A DNA stretch of 51,541 nucleotides, taken from Spirochaetales bacterium (GTDB lineage Bacteria > Spirochaetota > Spirochaetia > DSM-2461). Below are positions 23,664-37,215 of the stretch, in pieces. The notes beneath the pieces were generated by a model that was not told where the DNA came from, made no database searches, and worked only from the letters and a program-made list of their open reading frames with translations. Every line of letters starts with the position of its first letter. Position 1 is the stretch's first letter. The stretch is taken from the NCBI GenBank assembly GCA_016936555.1, contig JAFGXR010000025.1:1-51541 (forward strand). Direction: 5' to 3'. The translations under genes and the position numbers were made by a program.

Positions 23664-24491
23664 ATGGCTTGGTTTAGCACTTCTAAAGCTAAAGATAAAA
23701 AATTCAATGAAGATATCTGGTTAAGCTGCCCCAAATGTAAAAAACATATTTTCAAGGAAAGCTGGCTGCAGGAACACAAGGTCTGCCCGGCATGCGGGCA
23801 TCATGGAAAACTGACTGCCTGGGAAAGAATCGGCATTACCCTTGATGAAGGGACTTTTACGGAGCTCAACGGTGCCATAAAGCCCGCCGACCCCCTGGAG
23901 TTCAACGACGCCAAGGGAAGTTATAAAGATAAAGTGGCCGAGACGACGGAGAAAACCGGACTGAACGAATCGGTCGTAACCGGTTCCGGCAAAATAAACG
24001 GAATCCCCGTATCCATCGCTGTTATGGATTTCCGGTTCCTCGGAGGAAGTCTCTCCTCGGGAACAGGAGAAAAAATTCTGAGAGCAGCCAATTACGCTTA
24101 TGAGAAATCGGTTCCCCTGATCATCTTCTCCGCTTCCGGTGGAGCGAGAATGCACGAGGGAATTCTCAGCCTGATGCAGATGGCCAAGACCTGCGCCGGC
24201 GTCGCCCGGCTCAACGACAGGGATATCCCTTTTATTTCCGTTCTCACCGATCCGACGACAGGGGGCGTCTCCGCATCCTATGCCATGGTAGGCGACCTCA
24301 ACCTGGCGGAACCGGGGGCTCTTATAGCCTTCGCGGGACGGAGGGTCATCGAGGAAACCATTAAACAGAAGCTTCCCGATGATTTTCAGACAGCTGAATA
24401 TCTGGTGGAACACGGCTTTATCGATAAAATCGTTCACCGGAAGGAAATGAAGAATACACTCAGTCGGATTCTTTCATTTTACAACAGATAG
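23664..24491 (+). CDS. accD: Acetyl-CoA carboxylase carboxyltransferase, beta subunit
   Basis: 275 aa. With AccA it transfers the carboxyl group from biotin to acetyl-CoA, giving malonyl-CoA for fatty-acid synthesis. The N-terminal zinc ribbon CPKCKKH...CPACGHH (residues 27-49) is followed by the crotonase-like core with FRFLGGSLSSGTGEK and SASGGARMHEG, hallmarks of AccD. First gene of a three-gene operon: accA starts 12 bp later. Its leader carries a dyad that may be an operator. The ATG has AGGTGG 6-7 nt upstream. Confidence 0.96.
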   Translation: MAWFSTSKAKDKKFNEDIWLSCPKCKKHIFKESWLQEHKVCPACGHHGKLTAWERIGITLDEGTFTELNGAIKPADPLEFNDAKGSYKDKVAETTEKTGLNESVVTGSGKINGIPVSIAVMDFRFLGGSLSSGTGEKILRAANYAYEKSVPLIIFSASGGARMHEGILSLMQMAKTCAGVARLNDRDIPFISVLTDPTTGGVSASYAMVGDLNLAEPGALIAFAGRRVIEETIKQKLPDDFQTAEYLVEHGFIDKIVHRKEMKNTLSRILSFYNR

Positions 24492-24503
24492 GAGCACGGG
24501 AAG

Positions 24504-25421
24504 ATGGTTAGCAAAATAGAACTGGAAAAGAAACTGGCTTTGATGTCCAACTCCCCGGATCTTTTTAAAAGGGAAATTGCCAAAGTTAAAAAGGAACTGG
24601 CGGAGCTGGATTCCCAGCCCCAGGACCGGACACCCTGGGAAACAGTCAAGCTGGCGAGAAATCCCCTCAGGCCGGTGCTCCAGGATTACCTGGGGGCCAT
24701 ATTTACCGATTTTACGGAATTTCACGGGGACAGACGCTTCTCAGACGATAAAGCCATTGCTTCGGGTTTCGCCCGGATAGGCGGCGAACCGGTTATGGTC
24801 ATAGGCCACAACAAGGGAAAAACCATTGAGGAGAACATTGAAAGGAACTTCGGCTGCGCTTTGCCCGACGGCTACAGAAAGGCTCTGAGGATGATGCAGT
24901 TAGCCGAGCGTTTCAATGTACCCATCATAACTTTCATTGATACTCAGGGAGCTTTTCCCGGCCTGGAAGCCGAAGAGAGAGGACAGGCCGAAGCCATCGC
25001 CAGAAACCTGGTTGAAATGGCCCGGATCAAGGTCCCTATCATCTGCGTGGTCGTCGGTGAAGGTGGTTCTGGAGGAGCTCTCGGGATCGGCGTGGGAGAC
25101 AGGATTCTCATGCTCTCCAATGCGGTTTACTCCGTTATCTCCCCTGAAGGCTGTGCCGGCATCCTCTGGAGAGACGGAACGAAAGCGCCTCTGGCGGCTT
25201 CGGCTCTGAAACCGACGGCCCCGTCCCTGCAGGAACTGGATGTCATTGACAGAATTATAGAAGAACCGGCGGATGGCGCCCATACAGATTATGACGCCAC
25301 GTTCGCCGCAGTCAAGCAAGCATTACTGGAAGAGCTGAAGGGCTTGAAAAAGATCCCGAAAGCCAAATTGACCAAACGCCGTTTTGAAAAGTTTTCCAAA
25401 ATGGGGATCTACAACGAGTAG
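24504..25421 (+). CDS. accA: Acetyl-CoA carboxylase carboxyltransferase, alpha subunit
   Basis: 305 aa. Partner of AccD in the A2B2 carboxyltransferase. Recognised by the coiled N-terminus, RNPLRPVLQDYL, then FTEFHGDRRFSDD, the substrate loop FIDTQGAFPGLEAEERGQ and the glycine-rich GEGGSGGALGIG (oxyanion site), followed by SPEGCAGILWRD. AGGAG precedes the ATG, and accD ends 12 bp upstream. The next gene, 20 bp downstream, encodes a carboxyltransferase fused to a biotin carrier, so one operon makes both kinds of biotin-dependent carboxyltransferase. Confidence 0.96.
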   Translation: MVSKIELEKKLALMSNSPDLFKREIAKVKKELAELDSQPQDRTPWETVKLARNPLRPVLQDYLGAIFTDFTEFHGDRRFSDDKAIASGFARIGGEPVMVIGHNKGKTIEENIERNFGCALPDGYRKALRMMQLAERFNVPIITFIDTQGAFPGLEAEERGQAEAIARNLVEMARIKVPIICVVVGEGGSGGALGIGVGDRILMLSNAVYSVISPEGCAGILWRDGTKAPLAASALKPTAPSLQELDVIDRIIEEPADGAHTDYDATFAAVKQALLEELKGLKKIPKAKLTKRRFEKFSKMGIYNE

Positions 25422-25441
25422 AAAGATACAGGAGTTATATA

Positions 25442-27424
25442 ATGGCCGATAGAAGTCAGAAAAAAGAAGACGCTCTGCACAAGCTGCCTTTGAGAATTAC
25501 CGATACGACACTGAGAGACGCTCATCAGTCCCTCTGGGCAACCAGAATGAGGACATCCGACATTATGGATATTATCGATACGATAGACCAGGCCGGATAT
25601 TACTCTCTCGAAATGTGGGGAGGGGCCACCTTTGATGTCTGCATGCGCTTTCTGAGGGAAAACCCCTGGGAGAGATTGCGGGAAGTGAAAAAGAGAGCGA
25701 CGAAAACGCCCCTTCAGATGCTTCTCCGCGGACAGAACGCCGTGGGATACCGCAATTACTCCGATGATGTTATCGATAAATTCGTAGCGCTGGCAGCTAA
25801 AAACGGAATCGATATTTTCCGGATCTTCGATGCGCTGAATGATACGAGAAACCTTGAGGCGGCCATCAAAGCCGTCAAAAAACACGGCGGACACGCTCAG
25901 GGGACACTGGCCTATACAACATCTCCGGTCCATACGGTTGAAAAATACGTAGGATATGCGAAAGAACAGGTTCAGCTCGGTGTGGATTCGCTCTGCATCA
26001 AGGATATGGCGGGAATCCTCAGCCCCATTATGGCGGAAAAACTGGTATCGGCCCTGATCAAGGAAGTCGATGTCCCCATACAGATCCATGCCCACGCCAC
26101 AAGCGGCATGGCGACCCCGACGTACGTGGAGGGAGTCAGAGCCGGAGCGGGCGCCATTGACTGTTCGATCTCCAGCATGGCCGGTTTCACAGCCCAGCCG
26201 CCGGTCGAAACGCTCGCCGCTATTTTCAACGAAACGAACTATGCCACGAACCTCGATTTCGACGCTCTGGCGAAAATATCAGCCTATTTCAGCAAACTGA
26301 AGCACAAAAGAGCCCACAAGAGCACGGTTATGGATTCTATTATCGATCCCGGCATTCTTGTTCATCAGATCCCCGGTGGGATGATCTCCAATTTCCGGTC
26401 CCAGCTCGATATGCAGGGTGCCCTCGATAAGCTCGATGACGCCCTTGAAGAAGTGACTGCTGTCCGGAAGGATCTCGGTTATCCCCCTCTGGTAACACCG
26501 ACCAGCCAGATCGTCGGAACCCAGGCTGTTATGAACGTCCTGGCCGGCGAGCGCTATGCCATGGTTCCCAACGAAGTGAAAGAATATGTCCGGGGCAAAT
26601 ACGGACGCTCCCCCGCTCCCATCGATCCGGAGTTTATCAAAAAGATTCTCGGAGACGAAAAGCCCATCGACCACAGGCCGGCCGATGATATAAAACCCAT
26701 GCTTCCCACCATAGCCAACGATCTGGAAGCGGGACTGATCCGGGAAGACGAGGATGTCCTGTCCTACGCCATGTTCCCCGAAGTGGCTATCGAATTTTTC
26801 AAGTGGAGAAATCAGCCCGAGGGGGAAAGAGACCCCATCCCCGCCGATCTGGAAATGGAAGCCGATACATCAACAGCCGATGTGAAAACGGCTGAACTCC
26901 CGCTGAAGCAGGGTACGGGAAAGGCCGATGCCGACCAGCTGGTCCATACGAACGACTATACGGGAATAGCCCATGTAATAGCCCAGACAGCCGGTCTCAA
27001 TCTCGACGAGCTTTCCATCCGCAAAGGGGATTTTTCAATTGATATCAGAGCTAACGGCGCAGCGCCCCGTCCCTTCGCACAGCCTGCGGCCGCCGCTCAG
27101 GCCGCAGCTCCCGCACCGGCTGAACCGGCCGCATCTCCTGAGGAAAAAGCCGCTCCCGCAGCATCTTCCGCCGGGAGTGCATCGGCCTATGAGAACGCAG
27201 TAAAGGCCCCGCTTGTCGGAACCTTCTACGCCGCATCGGAACCGGGACAGCCTCCCTTCGTAAAACTGGGCGATTCTGTTAAAGCCGGGGATACGGTCTG
27301 TATTGTTGAAGCCATGAAGCTATTCAATGAGATCAAGGCGTCAAAAGACGGAGTGATCGATGCCATTTTCTACAAAGATGGTGATAAGGTTTCCAAAGGC
27401 GATGTCCTTATCGGTTTGAAATAA
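25442..27424 (+). CDS. oadA: Pyruvate/oxaloacetate carboxyltransferase fused to a BCCP-like biotin domain
   Basis: 660 aa. Residues 1-470 are the carboxyltransferase of pyruvate carboxylase subunit B / oxaloacetate decarboxylase alpha: RITDTTLRDAHQSLWATRM, GQNAVGYRNY, KDMAGIL and the metal motif HAHATSG, then the PYC_OADA domain. After an Ala/Pro linker the C-terminus is built like AccB: LNLDELSIRKGDFSIDI (BCCP N-terminal helix) near 521, KAPLVGTFYAA, and biotinyl Lys626 in VEAMKLFNEI. The carrier sequence matches BCCP more than typical OadA ends (EAMKMxxEI). No separate accB or accC is present here. It may serve both anaplerosis and acetyl-CoA carboxylase. AGGAG precedes the ATG. Confidence 0.9.
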   Translation: MADRSQKKEDALHKLPLRITDTTLRDAHQSLWATRMRTSDIMDIIDTIDQAGYYSLEMWGGATFDVCMRFLRENPWERLREVKKRATKTPLQMLLRGQNAVGYRNYSDDVIDKFVALAAKNGIDIFRIFDALNDTRNLEAAIKAVKKHGGHAQGTLAYTTSPVHTVEKYVGYAKEQVQLGVDSLCIKDMAGILSPIMAEKLVSALIKEVDVPIQIHAHATSGMATPTYVEGVRAGAGAIDCSISSMAGFTAQPPVETLAAIFNETNYATNLDFDALAKISAYFSKLKHKRAHKSTVMDSIIDPGILVHQIPGGMISNFRSQLDMQGALDKLDDALEEVTAVRKDLGYPPLVTPTSQIVGTQAVMNVLAGERYAMVPNEVKEYVRGKYGRSPAPIDPEFIKKILGDEKPIDHRPADDIKPMLPTIANDLEAGLIREDEDVLSYAMFPEVAIEFFKWRNQPEGERDPIPADLEMEADTSTADVKTAELPLKQGTGKADADQLVHTNDYTGIAHVIAQTAGLNLDELSIRKGDFSIDIRANGAAPRPFAQPAAAAQAAAPAPAEPAASPEEKAAPAASSAGSASAYENAVKAPLVGTFYAASEPGQPPFVKLGDSVKAGDTVCIVEAMKLFNEIKASKDGVIDAIFYKDGDKVSKGDVLIGLK

Positions 27425-27445: not shown

Positions 27446-27481
27446 GGGATTGTTCCGCAGCGGGACAATCCCTATTTTTTT
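27446..27481 (+). terminator. Intrinsic terminator of the acc operon
   Basis: Arms GGGATTGTTCCGC (27446-27458) and GCGGGACAATCCC (27460-27472), with one G-U pair, followed by TATTTTTTTC. On the minus strand the same hairpin, followed by a weaker T-rich stretch, could also end the plsY transcript. Confidence 0.85.
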
Positions 27482-28107
27482 CTTTTTCTGCCGAACCTGT
27501 TCTCCGTCCCTTTTATCAGGCGGACAATATTCTTTCTGTGAAGGACCGTTATAACAATGGCGGTCGCAATAAAAAAGATTTGCTGTTCAGGAGTGTAGGT
27601 ATATCCGGCATGCCGGGTAAAAACATAATAGAAAACCGGGAGAAACCAGGCTGCGGCCAGAGAGGCTACCGAAACATATCCGGTCAGGAAAGCTATTACC
27701 AGGAAGAGAAAAAGACAGGCCGGCAAGGCCGGAGGAAAGAGCGCGGAAACACCTCCTGCACCCGATGCGACAGCCTTCCCACCTTTGAATCCCGACCAGA
27801 GGGGAAAGACATGGCCAAGGACAACGGCGCTCAGAATCAGGAGTTTAAGAAGTAATTGATTGTCCCACTGGATTCTGAAAAGACCGGAGAGCCATTCGCT
27901 GTAGAAAACAGGGAAAAAAGCTTTGGAAAAATCAAAGAGAGCAACGGGCAGCGCGGCTTTCACACCGAGAATCCGGAAGACATTGGTGGCGCCGGCATTC
28001 CCGCTCCCCTCCTTTCGAATATCCTTTCCTGTGAGAATGAATCCGGCCAGAAGGGCAGCAGGAACAGAGCCGATGAGATAGGCTGCCCCGATGAGAACAA
28101 ATGTCAT
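27472..28107 (-). CDS. plsY: Acyl-phosphate:glycerol-3-phosphate acyltransferase PlsY
   Basis: 211 aa, multi-pass inner-membrane enzyme that makes lysophosphatidate from acyl-phosphate and glycerol-3-phosphate. Conserved motifs are present: YLIGSVP near the N-terminus, GKDIRKEGSGNAGATN (motif 1), and GHVFPLWSGFKGGKAVAS (motif 2, glycerol-phosphate binding). The basic C-terminus is KRKK. Its ATG overlaps the stop of the upstream DUF1295 gene by 4 bp. The acyl-phosphate substrate is what fatty-acid kinase produces, and that kinase is encoded 1.8 kb away on the other strand. Confidence 0.94.
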   Translation of the reverse strand: MTFVLIGAAYLIGSVPAALLAGFILTGKDIRKEGSGNAGATNVFRILGVKAALPVALFDFSKAFFPVFYSEWLSGLFRIQWDNQLLLKLLILSAVVLGHVFPLWSGFKGGKAVASGAGGVSALFPPALPACLFLFLVIAFLTGYVSVASLAAAWFLPVFYYVFTRHAGYTYTPEQQIFFIATAIVITVLHRKNIVRLIKGTENRFGRKRKK

Positions 28108-28913
28108 GTATTATCTTCCCTGACAGACTTGGGAGGTAAAGGAACTAATAAACTGGTCTTGTCCCGGTATGAACGATAGAGCGGATTTTCTCCGTATTTC
28201 TTTTCTGCGCTTTTCTCCAGAAGAGGAATTCCGCTGACGAAGAGAAGCAGAAGAGTTATAAAAACCGGTCCCGCAACAGTCAGAAACTTCAAGCCGCCCA
28301 GAGCCGGGGTAACAACAACAAAAAGCCCCCACCAGACAAGCATTTCACCGAAATAATTGGGGTGACGGGAGTATTTCCACAACCCTTTTTCAATCCACAA
28401 CTCTTTATTCTCTTCATGACTCTTAAAACGGAATTTCTGATGATCGCTCACGCTCTCGAGAACAAACCCGATTGCAAAAAGGGCAAAACCAATAAAGTGG
28501 AGATAGAGATTGAAAGGGACTTCCCGAACTGCCAGAAAAATGGTGATCGGCAGCATAATGACCCATACCGCTATCATCTGCAGAACCCAGAATCGGATCA
28601 GATTGGCAGGGTTGCTGCGTTTGTCGTCAAAGCGCTCATCTGTTTTTGTTATAACTATCCGCAGAAAGAGATAGCCGCCCAATCTGAGAGCCCATAAGAG
28701 GACAGCCGCAGCGACAAGCAGCTGAACGTATGTGAAATCCGGACCTGCCGCGAAGAGAAGAACAGGAGCCAGAACAGCGAAAGTCAGGCTGTAGGACAGA
28801 TCAGTCACTTTGTCTGTTTTAAAAATCAAAGCCACAAGGAAAAAGGCAAAGTTAATGCCGAAGCTGAATAGAAAGGAAGCCAGAAGAGGCTGGCTATTGA
28901 TAAGCTGTATCAT
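28104..28913 (-). CDS. DUF1295 integral membrane protein (ICMT/steroid-reductase-like)
   Basis: 269 aa. About six to seven TM segments. The C-terminal half carries the signature of DUF1295 and related isoprenylcysteine-methyltransferase or steroid-reductase folds: WKYSRHPNYFGEMLVWWGLF, then FLSGIPLLEKSAEKKYG near the end. Members are presumed lipid-modifying enzymes using NADPH or SAM; the reaction is unknown. The ATG at 28913 is chosen because GGAG lies 6 nt upstream; the frame stays open to 29054, over the small upstream gene. It overlaps plsY by 4 bp, which supports a role in lipid metabolism. Confidence 0.82.
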   Translation of the reverse strand: MIQLINSQPLLASFLFSFGINFAFFLVALIFKTDKVTDLSYSLTFAVLAPVLLFAAGPDFTYVQLLVAAAVLLWALRLGGYLFLRIVITKTDERFDDKRSNPANLIRFWVLQMIAVWVIMLPITIFLAVREVPFNLYLHFIGFALFAIGFVLESVSDHQKFRFKSHEENKELWIEKGLWKYSRHPNYFGEMLVWWGLFVVVTPALGGLKFLTVAGPVFITLLLLFVSGIPLLEKSAEKKYGENPLYRSYRDKTSLLVPLPPKSVREDNT

Positions 28914-28938
28914 ATTTTCTCCATAAGTATAGATAATT

Positions 28939-29151
28939 TCAGTTAAAACCAATTTCGACGGATCGCCCGAACCGGGATCGGCCAAATCTGGTCTGGCCGT
29001 GAATTTCCAGTATCGATCCGTTTTTATTGTCGACGACAATATCCGCATGATCAATGAAAAGCCTGAGGAAAGCAGATTTTAAAGACATATCCAGTAAGAT
29101 TATGTCATCTGAGCCGTTGTACTTCTTCACTTGTTTTCTCTCCTTCTCCAT
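28939..29151 (-). CDS. Small basic protein of unknown function
   Basis: 70 aa, no recognised domain. Supported by a good ribosome-binding site (GGGAG, 5 nt before the ATG) and by position: it is the first frame of the minus-strand unit and ends 25 bp before the DUF1295 gene. The N-terminus is charged (MEKERKQVKKY); the middle, IILLDMSLKSAFLRLF, looks amphipathic; the end holds a tandem RFGRS-RFGRS. There is no TM segment or signal peptide. It could be a short regulatory or leader protein, or not expressed at all. Confidence 0.5.
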   Translation of the reverse strand: MEKERKQVKKYNGSDDIILLDMSLKSAFLRLFIDHADIVVDNKNGSILEIHGQTRFGRSRFGRSVEIGFN

Positions 29152-29342
29152 AGGAACTCCCTGGCTGAGAGGGGTAATGAAAAATCAAAATATATCTTAA
29201 TGCTATATTTATATTCACTTAAACATCTTTTTTTAACTATATTAGTAATTATTATTACTATTTGCAATTTATTTCTTTCCTTTTGATTTCTTTTTGATAT
29301 ATTTTATTTTGTAAGCTTATTAATTCGGGAGGAAAACAAAAT
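29152..29342. other. AT-rich divergent promoter region between two lipid operons
   Basis: 191 bp, strongly AT-rich, between the small-ORF/DUF1295/plsY unit (minus) and the lipocalin/fatty-acid kinase unit (plus). It contains a dyad TAGTAAT-TATT-ATTACTA at 29243-29260 and several overlapping -10-like hexamers, so exact promoters cannot be fixed by eye. The lipocalin gene has a GGGAGGA site. Confidence 0.55.
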
Positions 29343-29894
29343 ATGCGTTTGTTGTTTATCAGTTTTTTCTCTCTTATATTTTGTGCAGGAGCAATTATGA
29401 TTGTATCAGCTTCGGGAAATAAAGAACCTTACCATCGGACCGTAGACTATGTAGACCTCCAGCGCTTCTCCGGAGACTGGTATGTCATCGCCCTTATGCC
29501 GACGGTATTCGAAAAAGGCGCTTCCCATGGAATAGAAAACTACTCCATAGACGGCGAAGGAAATATACGGGTTCGTTACACTTTCCTGAAGGGGGCGGAG
29601 AATCCTAAAAAGAAAGTCATGTATCAGAGAGGCTGGGTTTATGATTTTGAGACCAATGCTGAATGGCGTGTGCAGCCTCTTTGGCCTCTGAAGCTGCCTT
29701 ATTACGTTTTGGAGCTTGCTGAAGATTACTCCTATACCGTTATCGGTACAAATAATTATAAATACCTTTGGATAATGGCCCGCTCCCACGTCATGGAAAC
29801 CAGAGTTCTCGAAGGCATTATAAACAGGATGGCAGAAAGAGGTTTCAACAGAAAGGACATCATAGAAATGGAACAAAGGGGGACTGCAGAATGA
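29343..29894 (+). CDS. Secreted bacterial lipocalin (Blc-like)
   Basis: 183 aa. The N-terminal 24 residues form a signal peptide. A Cys follows LIF, which is not a normal lipobox, so cleavage after VSA seems likelier and the protein should be soluble in the periplasm. Lipocalin signatures: FSGDWYVIALMP (the GxW motif), a beta-barrel core with YQRGWVYD and YVLELAEDYSYTVIGTNNYKYLWIMAR (second and third conserved regions), and a C-terminal helix. E. coli Blc binds fatty acids and lysophospholipids. Its stop overlaps the ATG of the fatty-acid kinase gene (ATGA), so the two are translationally coupled. Confidence 0.9.
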   Translation: MRLLFISFFSLIFCAGAIMIVSASGNKEPYHRTVDYVDLQRFSGDWYVIALMPTVFEKGASHGIENYSIDGEGNIRVRYTFLKGAENPKKKVMYQRGWVYDFETNAEWRVQPLWPLKLPYYVLELAEDYSYTVIGTNNYKYLWIMARSHVMETRVLEGIINRMAERGFNRKDIIEMEQRGTAE

Positions 29895-31693
29895 GCGATG
29901 ATGTTATGAACGGCTATCAGATTTATCATGGTTTTCTCGCCGGAGTCATGAGTATCAACAAGGAAAAGCAGCATTTGAACCGGATCAATGTTTTCCCCGT
30001 TGCCGACGGGGATACGGGAAACAATATGGTGAGAACGGTTAAGATGATTGCCAAGCGGCTTGAAACCTCTCGTTCGGCATCAGACGTTCTATCCCGCATT
30101 GCGAGACTGTCTCTCGATAGCGCAAGGGGTAATTCGGGAATGATATTTTCACAATACCTGAACGGTCTTGCCATTCATACAGAAGGGAAGGACACTCTTT
30201 CCGTGGATGATTTCGCCTTTGCCGCTAAAGAATCTGTTCATATGGCATACAAGGCTATGGAAAAACCCGTCGAAGGGACAATTCTGACAGTTCTGAGAGC
30301 CTGGTCAGAATCTCTCTATCAGCACAGCGTCGAGAACCATCCTCCCGGAGAGATATTCAAGAGAGCTTTCGACAAGGCAGCCCAGGTTCTGGAAAAAACC
30401 AGAGATCAGCTCCAGGTACTGAAAGAAAATAATGTCATAGATGCCGGAGCCCTGGGTTTTGTTTCCTTTCTGCAAGGTGTAGAGACCCTCCGTTTTCAGG
30501 GGCCGGTCCCTTTATCTTTCAGACGACAACTTCTCGCGGGGAATGACCTGGTTTCAATGGAAGGAAATATGAGCCGTCACAAAAACAGCTCCGCACCGCC
30601 GTTCAGATACTGTACGGAGTTTCTCATCGGCAACAGGCTTGAGAATCGGGAAAATCTGAAGAAAGAGCTAAGCCCTCTGGGAGATTCTCTGATAATTAAC
30701 GAAGGCAAAGAGAAGACAAGGATTCACATTCATACGAGCCTTCCCCATGAGGCTGCGGATATTTTACGGAGATACGGGGCAATTGAAGAGGAAAAGGCCG
30801 ACGATATGGTCAGACAGCAGCAGGTCGTCAATGCACGGAAGAGCTCTGTAGCGGTCCTGACTGATTCCATCGCCGATATCCCCCAGGAGATCCTCGATGA
30901 AGAGCAGATCCATGTGATAAACCTGAAGCTCAACTGGGACGATGCGGAATATCTCGACCGCATTACCATGACTCCGGAACAGTTCTACAGAGAACAGCAG
31001 ACAAGGACTTCTTTTCCCGGCAGCTCAGTTCCAGAGCCGGGCCGGATCGATTCAATTTATCAATATCTGACCGATTATTACGATTCTGTCATTGTTCTGC
31101 CTGTAGCCAGATCGCTCAGCGGCACGTGGAACCAGATGACTCAATCGGCTCTTCCCTATAACAGCGTCAAAAAACGCATTGCCGTTGTTGACACCTGTCT
31201 CAATTCAGTAGCCCAGGGGTTGCTTGTCAGGGAAATTGCCCGTCAGGCAAACGGTGGCAGTACTCTTGAAGAGCTGGTAACCGCCGCTGAAGATCTCAAA
31301 AAAAGAATTCGCATTTACGTAAGTGTCAGCACATTTAAATATATGGTGAAGGGAGGAAGAGTCAGCCCGCTGAAAGGGCTTATAGCCTCCCTTCTCCACC
31401 TCAAACCGATTGTATCTCTCGATGCGACAGGAAAGGGAAAGGCTTTCGATAAAGCGTTTTCCCGAGCCGGTCTTATAAAGAAAATTATTTCCATTATGAA
31501 AAAGACATCAGAGACAAAAGGCATTCAATCATACGCCATAGTTCATGGAGCGGCAGAAAAGAAAGCTGATGAGTTCGCCAGGGCTTTGAATGACGCTACA
31601 GGTACGGCACCCGATTACATTACTTCCATTTCCCCCATAGTGGGCATGCACTCGGGACGGGGAGCTCTGGCAATCGGTGTCATAGAAAAGTAA
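29891..31693 (+). CDS. Fatty-acid kinase, FakA (DAK2) fused to FakB (DegV)
   Basis: 600 aa. Residues 8-205 are a DhaL/DAK2 ATP-binding domain with NVFPVADGDTGNNM, where Asp39 and Asp41 should hold magnesium. The middle domain has Cys241 and His279/His281 (RIHIHT), matching the zinc triad reported for S. aureus FakA. From about residue 320 comes a complete DegV domain: LTDSIADIP, TSFPGSSVPEPG, RSLSGTWN, KYMVKGGRVS and VGMHSGRGALAIG, the fatty-acid-binding set of FakB. The expected reaction is fatty acid + ATP to acyl-phosphate, the PlsY substrate. The start at 29891 overlaps the lipocalin stop; the longer frame to 29768 lies inside that gene. Confidence 0.88.
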   Translation: MSDDVMNGYQIYHGFLAGVMSINKEKQHLNRINVFPVADGDTGNNMVRTVKMIAKRLETSRSASDVLSRIARLSLDSARGNSGMIFSQYLNGLAIHTEGKDTLSVDDFAFAAKESVHMAYKAMEKPVEGTILTVLRAWSESLYQHSVENHPPGEIFKRAFDKAAQVLEKTRDQLQVLKENNVIDAGALGFVSFLQGVETLRFQGPVPLSFRRQLLAGNDLVSMEGNMSRHKNSSAPPFRYCTEFLIGNRLENRENLKKELSPLGDSLIINEGKEKTRIHIHTSLPHEAADILRRYGAIEEEKADDMVRQQQVVNARKSSVAVLTDSIADIPQEILDEEQIHVINLKLNWDDAEYLDRITMTPEQFYREQQTRTSFPGSSVPEPGRIDSIYQYLTDYYDSVIVLPVARSLSGTWNQMTQSALPYNSVKKRIAVVDTCLNSVAQGLLVREIARQANGGSTLEELVTAAEDLKKRIRIYVSVSTFKYMVKGGRVSPLKGLIASLLHLKPIVSLDATGKGKAFDKAFSRAGLIKKIISIMKKTSETKGIQSYAIVHGAAEKKADEFARALNDATGTAPDYITSISPIVGMHSGRGALAIGVIEK

Positions 31694-31704
31694 GGAGTTA
31701 TAAA

Positions 31705-32568
31705 ATGAGAAAAATCACTATTATCACAGCTTTATTATTCGCGATTTCGGCGAATAGCCTATTCAGTCTATCATGGGATGAAGAGAGCCTGATCAACAAG
31801 CCCGACAGCCTTTTCAAGTTTAACGCCGAAGTGGAAGGCGGGGTGACCAAAGTGCTCTACCACCACTATCAGAACGGGGATGCCGGAACCGATTTCGATT
31901 TTGTCACCATGGGAGGCCAGGAGATCCTCTTCCCCTTCAGCCGCGTAGAAGCGGGAATCGTTTTAGCGGACAGACATATATTCAATGCCCTCTATCAGCC
32001 TCTGATCGTCAATACGGAAGTGACATTCCGCGATGATGTGACTGTCGATCAGGTCACTTTTGCCTCTGGAACACCAATGGACATCCAGTACGGCTTTTCC
32101 TTCTGGCGCTTTACCTACGGCTTTGATTTTTTCAAGCGGAAAGATCTCGATGTGGTAGCCGGCGTGGCTCTCCAGCTGAGAAACGCTTCCATCATCTTCT
32201 CGGAAAAAAACGGAGCACAGTCCACGACGAGCCAGAACCTGGGACTGGTACCGGCCCTCTACGTCGCCGCCGAATACCGCTTCCCCTCGGGCATCGGCCT
32301 GGGCTTTGAAGCCACGGGAATCTATGCCAGCTCGGCTTTTTTCAACGGAGCGGATTTCGAGTTCGAAGGCAGTCTCCTCGACACGTCCCTCAGAGTTTTA
32401 TTCCCTCTTAAAAACGGCATCGATACATTTGTCAATGTCCGCTTTCTCGGAGGAACTTCCGATGGAGTCAGCCAGTATGAAGACCGCTTCTGGACCCAAA
32501 CCATAGAAAACTATTCAACGAACAATCTGGCCACTTTGAATTTCTCCATCGGTCTGAGAATCCGGTAA
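31705..32568 (+). CDS. Predicted outer-membrane beta-barrel protein
   Basis: 287 aa. A signal peptide of about 21 residues (MRKITIITALLFAISANSLFS) is followed by alternating hydrophobic/polar stretches rich in aromatic residues and glycines, ending in a beta-strand with NFSIGLRIR. This is the pattern of an outer-membrane barrel of roughly 10-14 strands. I do not recognise a family; FadL motifs are not evident. It starts 11 bp after the fatty-acid kinase gene with a strong AAGGAG, so it belongs to that operon. Location and neighbours suggest a lipid-uptake channel or sensor, which is inference. Confidence 0.7.
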   Translation: MRKITIITALLFAISANSLFSLSWDEESLINKPDSLFKFNAEVEGGVTKVLYHHYQNGDAGTDFDFVTMGGQEILFPFSRVEAGIVLADRHIFNALYQPLIVNTEVTFRDDVTVDQVTFASGTPMDIQYGFSFWRFTYGFDFFKRKDLDVVAGVALQLRNASIIFSEKNGAQSTTSQNLGLVPALYVAAEYRFPSGIGLGFEATGIYASSAFFNGADFEFEGSLLDTSLRVLFPLKNGIDTFVNVRFLGGTSDGVSQYEDRFWTQTIENYSTNNLATLNFSIGLRIR

Positions 32569-35604: not shown

Positions 35605-37215
35605 TTGATCCTCAACCGCCTATTCGGATTCGAACCTGTCGATCAGGAAGAGGAGATCGATAGGGCTGAAATGAAAAAGAGATTGGATATTACGCAGCAA
35701 TGGCATTTTTTTCATCTCTGCAGCAGCTGCGATATCTTCGATTATTCTGTGCTCATCCGGGGAGAGAAGATTCAGAAAGAACAGATAACCCATCTCCTGA
35801 ATGAGACTGTAGCCCTCGAAGTTCTTCCCGGAACACTGACCGAAGAGGACATTGAGCCTTTATTCTGGATATGGGGTGAAACCGCGGTCGTGGCGGGACG
35901 GGAAAACAGATTTTTCATAGTAAAATCTCATTGCGGCGAAAATGACCAGAAGGACAGCAAATGCCTTAGGATATGCCGAAGCCGGGAATTTACATTCGGA
36001 CATTACCTGATTCCCGAATTATCGATCGGAAGCTCGTTTATCAACCGCGATTTTCAGCAACTCTGTTTTGCCCCTGAAGCCCTGGTCTCCGAGGGCAACA
36101 GTCTTTTCCATTGCATGTTCCGGATCGATGAGAGAGATGTTCCGTGCTTTTACACATTTCGGGGACAGAGTCCGTCAATAGACACGCTGTCAGCCCGGCT
36201 GATGAAATCACAGAAGGAAAGCCTCAGCCGCCTGTTGAATAAAGAGGTTGCGATCAGCACCGCCGGTCCCCTTTCCCCCGGTGCGGAGAAAACCCCCGAA
36301 GGATACGAATTGGAGGGGCATCTTTATTCTTCCGGGGGAACACTCCCTTACCGTTTCAGGTTTCCCCGGAAACTTCTCAATCTGCTGCCGGATCAGGAGT
36401 GTTCAACCATCAAAGGAAAAATTCTTCAGACAAACCGACTCCTCTTCCGCGGGGATTTTGATTCTTTTCATCTTTCGGGCAACAGGTTTCTTCTTGATGA
36501 CCTCCTGACACTGGCCGGTACCAGAGATCTCAATATCATCTGTCAGAATTTTGTACTCTCCAACTCCTTGTCGGGAGAAGATCTGAGAAAGCTCTTCTAC
36601 TATAAAATCCCCAGGGGCGGAAAAGACCGCATGACGTCCCTTCCCTTCTCAAGCCGTCAGAAACTTCTGGAACACCTTCCCCTGCGGATCCGGGAGGAAT
36701 TTATAACAGTTCAAAGCGGCTCGGAAAATATCGATGAGCTCCTGGACCGCAACAGCCGGCTCCTCGAAGAACTTTTTAAGGGGATTTCCGAAGGCAAGCT
36801 CCTCCTCAGTTCCAATATAAAGCTGATATTGCAAAGAGAAACCGGAACAAAGCTTCGGGAAAACGGTTTGGTCCGCTTGAAAAAACTGATGAGCAAAATG
36901 GGAACCTATCATTCTCTGATGCGCCTTGATGGCAAAACGATTCAGATTTTTCTCGGTACACTCAATCACAGGGTTCTCTGCGATCTCTTTGTCTACCAGC
37001 CTAAAAATATCGTACAACTGAAACAGTATCTGAGCCGCAACCGCTTCAATGAACTGATGGAGGATATCCGGTACACACAAAACAGGATAAAAACAGATCA
37101 GATCGACATAAACCGGGTTTGTGACAGCATAGAGAGATTCAACAGGGAAGCAGCCGCCTTTATCCGAAAGGAAAAAGAGAAGAATCGTAGAGACGCCGGA
37201 AAAAACCGACTATAA
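35605..37215 (+). CDS. Large protein of unknown function with FliG-C-like C-terminal domain
   Basis: 536 aa from a TTG at 35605; an ATG at 35671 with AGGG 5 nt upstream is an equally good start (514 aa). The first 430 residues match nothing I know; they include HLCSSCDIFDY early on and no TM helix. Residues 438-525 align by eye with the C-terminal rotor domain of FliG: LDGKTIQIFLGTLNHRVLCDLF parallels LDDRSIQ...REVD...LALAL, and ELMEDIRYTQNRIK..QIDINRVCDSI parallels the LLKDELEYMGPVRLKDVEEAQQKI helix pair. The charged torque residues (REVD) are lost. It may be a FliG-derived structural or motility protein. No flagellar gene is adjacent. Confidence 0.55.
   Translation: MILNRLFGFEPVDQEEEIDRAEMKKRLDITQQWHFFHLCSSCDIFDYSVLIRGEKIQKEQITHLLNETVALEVLPGTLTEEDIEPLFWIWGETAVVAGRENRFFIVKSHCGENDQKDSKCLRICRSREFTFGHYLIPELSIGSSFINRDFQQLCFAPEALVSEGNSLFHCMFRIDERDVPCFYTFRGQSPSIDTLSARLMKSQKESLSRLLNKEVAISTAGPLSPGAEKTPEGYELEGHLYSSGGTLPYRFRFPRKLLNLLPDQECSTIKGKILQTNRLLFRGDFDSFHLSGNRFLLDDLLTLAGTRDLNIICQNFVLSNSLSGEDLRKLFYYKIPRGGKDRMTSLPFSSRQKLLEHLPLRIREEFITVQSGSENIDELLDRNSRLLEELFKGISEGKLLLSSNIKLILQRETGTKLRENGLVRLKKLMSKMGTYHSLMRLDGKTIQIFLGTLNHRVLCDLFVYQPKNIVQLKQYLSRNRFNELMEDIRYTQNRIKTDQIDINRVCDSIERFNREAAAFIRKEKEKNRRDAGKNRL

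Follow-up and report, generated by a model that had tools for sequence, protein, structure and literature searches.

Gene content and conserved unit of the locus

The genes considered here lie in a stretch of 51,541 nucleotides (the window) from the draft genome of a Spirochaetales bacterium (4.73 Mb, about 95% complete; referred to as G000, with further G-codes for the genomes of relatives and L-codes for individual loci). On the forward strand, a gene for a secreted or periplasmic lipocalin (29343-29894; Pfam Lipocalin_2, PF08212, 9.8e-29) is joined by an ATGA overlap of its stop with the following start to a gene for a 600-amino-acid single-chain fatty-acid kinase (29891-31693), which is followed by that of an outer-membrane β-barrel protein (31705-32568), with a start 12 bases after the end of the kinase gene. 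Upstream and divergent, on the reverse strand, lie the genes of a DUF1295 membrane protein with a steroid-5-alpha-reductase fold (28104-28913; Pfam DUF1295, 2e-65) and of the acyl-phosphate:glycerol-3-phosphate acyltransferase PlsY (27472-28107; Pfam G3P_acyltransf, 1.9e-46; TIGR00023, 165 bits at a cut-off of 137). The initial annotation had recognised both the forward trio and the divergent pair, and the open reading frames, the Pfam matches on either strand and a structure model of the barrel confirm these identities.

The unit that relatives conserve is however drawn differently from the lipocalin-kinase-barrel operon first proposed: it consists of lipocalin-kinase plus DUF1295-plsY, with the barrel outside. 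The lipocalin gene adjoins the fused kinase gene in most close relatives; this arrangement is seen in G001, G002, G005, G006, G010, G016 and G020 and, interrupted by a contig break, in G007. Nearly every genome of the family also has DUF1295 and plsY next to it, mostly in divergent orientation and co-directionally in G006 and G028. Linkage exceeds chance for four of the five genes and not for that of the barrel, which neighbours the kinase only in G000 and its sister species G002. Homologues of the barrel were found in 21 of 61 relatives, in most cases unlinked to the kinase; that of G001 (34% identity) follows plsY and that of G003 is divergent from a B12 regulator gene. We therefore do not count the barrel among the conserved partners of the kinase and consider that it should be dropped from the core of the module, as an accessory protein in a lineage-specific position.

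Nor does the barrel appear to be FadL-like. It has no match in Pfam or NCBIfam, including the FadL family model Toluene_X, and its structure model (predicted local distance difference test, pLDDT, 77.8) is closest to 9nh1, 2vdf and 1i78 (Legionella porin I, OpcA and OmpT/Pla; VIA Z of 16-18), whereas FadL stands at the bottom of the structural list with a Z of 7.0 for this model of pLDDT 78. An identity as FadL is set aside on these grounds. A part of the barrel in the proposed path is not supported.

Of all partners of the fused kinase, DUF1295 is conserved most widely, a link that the initial annotation had missed. Among 76 non-spirochaete loci, which are the best matches to one query and hence a sample and not a census, 53 carry DUF1295 within 3.5 kb of the kinase, and in 44 it has the same orientation as the kinase and is at most 100 bases away; the loci with this link come from Firmicutes, Thermotogae, Cloacimonadota, Marinimicrobia, Aminicenantes, Bacteroidetes and others. 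The lipocalin accompanies the kinase only in outer-membrane phyla, in many spirochaetes and in 6 of 43 other-phylum loci as against none of 33 Firmicutes-type loci. A locus of Tenebribacter burtonii (L130:1143-7407) unites two lipocalins, a barrel homologue, the fused kinase, DUF1295, a secreted protein of a family termed fam10 and a DUF523/DUF1722 protein, and so holds nearly the whole spirochaete gene set in another phylum. A membrane protein of the DUF2177 family is encoded next to the fused kinase or next to DUF1295 in 26 Firmicutes-type loci (L101-L165).

A frame-broken remnant of fam10 is also found in the window on the reverse strand (28911-29157), where residues 152-206 and 208-232 match in two frames (tblastn to L076:12164-12859). 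The hidden Markov model of the family detects it with an E value of 4e-9 and its counterpart in G002 with 6e-14; the gene is decayed in both genomes and intact next to DUF1295 or plsY in L076, L077, L079, L084, L122 and L130. Farther from the module, positions 35605-37215 of the window encode a 536-amino-acid protein without any Pfam match, which shares 62% identity with its counterpart in the sister genome, the lowest conservation among the flanking genes.

The fused kinase and its probable partners in lipid metabolism

The 600-amino-acid protein, whose nearest named relatives come from Spirochaetaceae and Spirochaetales genomes, combines in one chain a DAK2 domain (amino acids 36-197; Dak2, 2e-37), a FakA middle domain (238-311; FakA-like_M, 8e-17) and a FakB/DegV domain (320-600; DegV, 4e-68). 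This is a real fusion, since the C-terminus scores as DegV/FakB (230 bits) and not as the degenerate FakA_C domain that closes ordinary FakA (27 bits as FakA-like_C). The structural homologues of the protein are FakA as well as FakB chains. In the kinase of Staphylococcus aureus the nucleotide site (N32, D38, D40, T41, N82, D185), a Cys240-His282-His284 triad and an essential Arg173 of FakB1 have been defined (PMC9136124). These residues are matched by N33, D39, D41, T42, N81, D184, C241, H279, H281 and R490, the last within a KGGR motif that aligns with solved DegV/FakB chains, and all ten are invariant in 15 homologues with identities down to 34%. Because the Fak residues are invariant, the C-terminus is a true DegV domain and no other DegV protein is present in the genome, the protein is best read as a single-chain fatty-acid kinase that would phosphorylate fatty acids at the expense of ATP, which bears out the initial annotation. 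It shares with the FakA/FakB systems of Staphylococcus, Enterococcus and Bacillus the DAK2 nucleotide site, the Cys-His-His triad, the FakB arginine and the expected delivery of acyl-phosphate to PlsY, but differs from them in being one polypeptide instead of FakA plus several separate FakBs, with the FakB domain in place of FakA_C, and in belonging to a diderm spirochaete without detectable PlsX. The open-access literature, to which our survey was confined (subscription journals were not covered), contains no useful description of a DAK2-DegV fusion.

The acyl-phosphate used by PlsY is classically the product of PlsX. PlsX (PF02504), however, was not found in the roughly 95% complete G000 or in 39 of its 40 relatives, with all eight control genomes positive. 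PlsY has a single match in G000 and was detected in 22 of the 41 genomes. By our reading, 26 of the 30 PlsY matches in them have a kinase gene, fused or split, at a distance of no more than about 3.5 kb. One further match (G015 C284) neighbours the lipocalin of the module where a contig is broken, and those without a linked kinase are found in G032, at G019:C301 and, as a partial match, in G017. The co-occurrence of PlsY and kinase across genomes is strong (Fisher p 2e-8, uncorrected for phylogeny). Among 16 genomes from other phyla, for which completeness is not given, PlsX is absent from six of the eight in which the fused kinase is linked to PlsY (L096, L097, L122, L158, L161 and L173; present in L105 and L137) as compared to one of the eight in which it is not (L115). 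Since PlsX is undetectable and PlsY sits beside the kinase, the latter is, as judged from the genomes, the only identified candidate source of acyl-phosphate for this PlsY. The functional tie between kinase and PlsY proposed in the initial annotation is thus well supported by linkage, and the missing PlsX makes it stronger than was first suggested. As in the PlsX-PlsY pathway, PlsY would acylate glycerol-3-phosphate from acyl-phosphate, but the latter would come from the kinase alone. That such a route is workable is indicated by the synthesis of lysophosphatidate in vitro by FakAB and PlsY without PlsX, also with PlsY of E. coli (PMC13400652), and by the ability of S. aureus lacking PlsX to live on free fatty acid via Fak (PMC13245860).

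Five relatives (G008, G015, G018, G019 and G020) contain a second locus of split FakA and PlsY in addition to the fused kinase with PlsY, so that two acyl-phosphate routes may coexist in them. Simple auxotrophy is ruled out as the reason for the module, because de novo fatty-acid synthesis genes are present: FabH is found in G000 and accA and accD in the window. The latter belong to a run beside plsY (23664-27424) of an accD-like gene, accA and a biotin-bearing pyruvate/oxaloacetate carboxylase-type gene, which is kept in G002 only.

DUF1295 is probably a lipid reductase of the type that uses reduced nicotinamide adenine dinucleotide phosphate (NADPH). Its profile matches SRD5A2 and a bacterial SRD5A (7bw1/7c83) in the PDB at an E value of 2e-5 and no methyltransferase, and its model (pLDDT 93.4) fits the delta-14 sterol reductase 4quv with a VIA Z of 15.3 and 7c83 with 14.5, within a range of 15.3-13.5 for sterol reductases and SRD5A that lies above the isoprenylcysteine methyltransferase ICMT. 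On account of these matches a reductase appears more likely than a methyltransferase. In addition to the fold, the protein has in common with SRD5A2 the C-terminal D...N...E residues, which we take to be NADPH residues: D156 and N185 are invariant and E189 is nearly so. It differs from the steroid 5-alpha-reductase family in being bacterial and linked to a fatty-acid kinase. The literature surveyed offers nothing useful on the function of DUF1295.

The lipocalin was originally described as of the Blc type, which holds loosely. The sequence FSGDWY meets the GxW motif of the lipocalin fold, and the nearest solved relatives are the plant lipocalin TIL-1 and bacterial Blc, but the protein scores only 67 bits against the NCBIfam Blc model with its cut-off of 267, and no canonical lipobox could be read by eye in its sequence, whereas one is visible in the lipocalins of G006, G015, L108, L130 and L146. 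Hence, although it shares the GxW fold, secretion and membership in a lipid-binding family with Blc and the temperature-induced lipocalins, it forms a sequence group of its own, is encoded in a lipid-kinase operon and lacks the canonical lipobox. For lipocalins, induction or gene clustering in connection with oxidative stress or light has been described (PMC7064467, PMC5401885); no useful paper joining a lipocalin with a fatty-acid kinase was found.

A B12-type regulator and its predicted operator

A further feature that the initial annotation had not noted is the regulatory context. Genes of regulators with a helix-turn-helix (HTH) and a B12-binding domain precede the lipocalin-kinase genes or lie close by in G001, G006, G007, G010, G015, G016, G018 and G020. 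The Wx9EH motif, which defines CarH photoreceptors (PMC8156234), is intact in seven aligned regulators and in the copy of G000 itself (WFTGDISVLDEH in L188:7190-8077). The lower-ligand histidine is kept, but the HTH_3 forms have another residue in place of the glycine that follows it in ExHx2G; the copy of G000 reads EEHDLV, with the acidic residue and the histidine present and the glycine replaced. The N-terminus of the G000 regulator aligns with the HTH_3 (Cro/CI) regulator of G001, an assignment by alignment and not by a domain scan; the MerR form occurs in G006 and in one of the two copies of G018. At L188:7190-12946 (G000:C96) the regulator gene is followed by those of a membrane-fusion protein, an RND pump and a TPR-like secreted protein, an order shared with G002 and G003 and divergent in G005, which describes a B12-regulated efflux operon. 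In G016 the regulator-RND order is directly joined to a lipocalin-kinase-photolyase cluster.

Photolyase and a DUF523/DUF1722 protein are encoded within the clusters of G007 and G016, where the photolyases are the only ones of these genomes. In other phyla, where 130 close neighbours were compared, photolyase ranks second among the Pfam families, behind ABC ATPases; this rank is only indicative because a few photolyase loci from an earlier clustering were deliberately added to this set; peroxiredoxins and rubrerythrins recur as well.

The promoters of these regulators and lipocalins share the pattern ATWWC-N5-GWWAT. As it was first noticed in some of the promoters later counted, the weight lies on the spacer control, an exception among the promoters and the background density: the N5 pattern occurs 19 times in 15 of 16 promoter regions (2808 bases) as compared to 0-3 times for any other spacer of 0-20, the only promoter region without it is that of a MerR-type regulator, and across the genome the pattern is met once per 34 kb. 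It is absent from the four promoters of clusters that lack lipocalin and regulator. In the window, the predicted operator ATTTCTTTTTGATAT (29286-29300, not assigned to a strand) in the lipocalin promoter forms the inverted repeat ATTTC-N5-GATAT, and the same repeat lies in the promoter of the G000 regulator. Its 15 bases are found unchanged in G002, before the regulator gene there as well, and an exact copy at G000:C38:6084, inside a sugar-kinase-like gene, is taken as chance. Since the lipocalin and regulator promoters have the operator in common, the lipocalin-kinase operon of the window is placed in the predicted regulon of this regulator. A second, AT-rich element (TAGTAATTATTATTACTATTTGCAA; 29238-29270), with similar sequences upstream of the regulators of G000 and G002 and of the kinase of G018, may represent an additional site or belong to the promoter.

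The present system has in common with the CarH/LitR regulons of Myxococcus, Thermus and Pseudomonas a B12-binding regulator with Wx9EH as well as genes for photolyase, an efflux pump and lipid metabolism, which in those regulons belong to light-induced sets, as elsewhere does lipocalin. Different from these, most of the regulators are of the Cro/CI and not the MerR type, and the target is a fatty-acid kinase operon. Taken together, the B12-binding regulators, the photolyases and the common operator point to a lipid salvage or repair function that is regulated by stress or light; the module is probably light- or oxidation-regulated.

A candidate acyl-salvage module in a diderm

The explanation to which we give somewhat more credence than doubt is that the locus encodes a PlsX-independent module for the salvage and remodelling of free fatty acids, controlled by a CarH/LitR-like repressor and serving mainly in stress recycling. 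The C-terminal FakB/DegV domain of the kinase would bind a fatty acid for phosphorylation by the DAK2 and middle domains of the same chain, and the adjacent PlsY would convert the acyl-phosphate to lysophosphatidate. The cargo of the lipocalin, at the outer membrane or within the periplasm, would be a fatty acid or a lysolipid, and DUF1295 would work on the same lipid pool, possibly by reducing unsaturated or oxidised acyl groups. The B12-binding repressor would act on the lipocalin-kinase operon via the operator at 29286-29300 and, because the operon would be under such control, the main role is probably to recycle or remodel acyl chains that damaged membranes release under light or oxidative stress; fatty acids from outside could be an additional source. 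Regulators, photolyases and peroxidases in the surroundings of the module speak for salvage or repair under such stress, of acyl chains that may be external or derive from the membranes of the cell itself.

Several observations weigh against this explanation. In G000 the regulator gene is located away from the cluster (G000:C96:11189-12034, followed by the RND efflux pair), and no photolyase gene was found in this genome, under the same operator or elsewhere. The operator pattern, as said, derives in part from promoters that were then counted. In most genomes outside the spirochaetes the kinase-DUF1295 pair has no link to PlsY, and eight PF01553 acyltransferases in the genome leave room for a PlsB-like entry, so that PlsY may not be the main entry into phospholipid. 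No thioesterase or phospholipase was identified as a source of free fatty acid. Finally, the DUF1295 model also matches ICMT with a Z of 12.1, which makes a methyltransferase branch possible.

The initial annotation proposed a nutritional route in which the barrel passes outside fatty acids, the lipocalin ferries them, and kinase and PlsY incorporate them. The step from kinase to PlsY stands, on linkage and the absence of PlsX, and the coupling of these two enzymes is solid; the lipocalin accompanies the kinase only in phyla with an outer membrane, and Fak of Firmicutes serves outside fatty acids (PMC12594616). Yet the barrel is not conserved with the kinase and does not appear FadL-like, genes for de novo synthesis are present, and regulators and neighbours indicate light and oxidative stress. 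Uptake of outside fatty acids may occur but is not singled out by the evidence here, and we regard a dedicated nutritional route as unlikely. A constant recycling of fatty acids from normal lipid turnover, with no special link to light or stress, would agree with the occurrence of the kinase-DUF1295 pair in anaerobic and monoderm lineages and with the use of Fak for internal fatty acids by Enterococcus faecalis and S. aureus (PMC12594616, PMC13245860). It would not account for the CarH-like regulator with its predicted operator before the lipocalin-kinase operon or for the prominence of photolyase among neighbours in other phyla, and appears rather improbable to us. That the kinase acts on an isoprenoid, sterol-like or modified acid reduced by DUF1295, with a secondary PlsY linkage, is very improbable in view of the conserved FakB residues and of PlsY beside fused and split kinases throughout PlsX-less spirochaetes, even though DUF1295 resembles sterol/steroid reductases and is more widely linked to the kinase than PlsY is.

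FakAB has been described as a strategy of Gram-positive bacteria, in agreement with the initial annotation, and thioesters as the form used by diderms (PMC10146087, PMC12594616). The literature surveyed yielded no description of the present module. In many diderm genomes PlsX is undetectable and plsY is accompanied by an adjacent kinase gene, which leads to the clear prediction that the kinase is the donor of acyl-phosphate. DUF1295, to which Pfam assigns no function, gains a likely lipid context. With an operon for lipid salvage linked to a photoreceptor of the B12 type, the idea that light controls membrane repair can be put to the test in organisms other than carotenoid producers. As a more speculative extension, which we put forward tentatively, the locus may belong to a light-sensing lipid-repair regulon of diderms based on adenosylcobalamin: upon illumination the CarH-like repressor would release the operon, the lipocalin would collect oxidised or released acyl chains, DUF1295 would make them usable, and kinase and PlsY would re-incorporate them without PlsX. 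Were this true, an as yet undescribed acyl-repair pathway of wide distribution would have the kinase-DUF1295 pair at its core.

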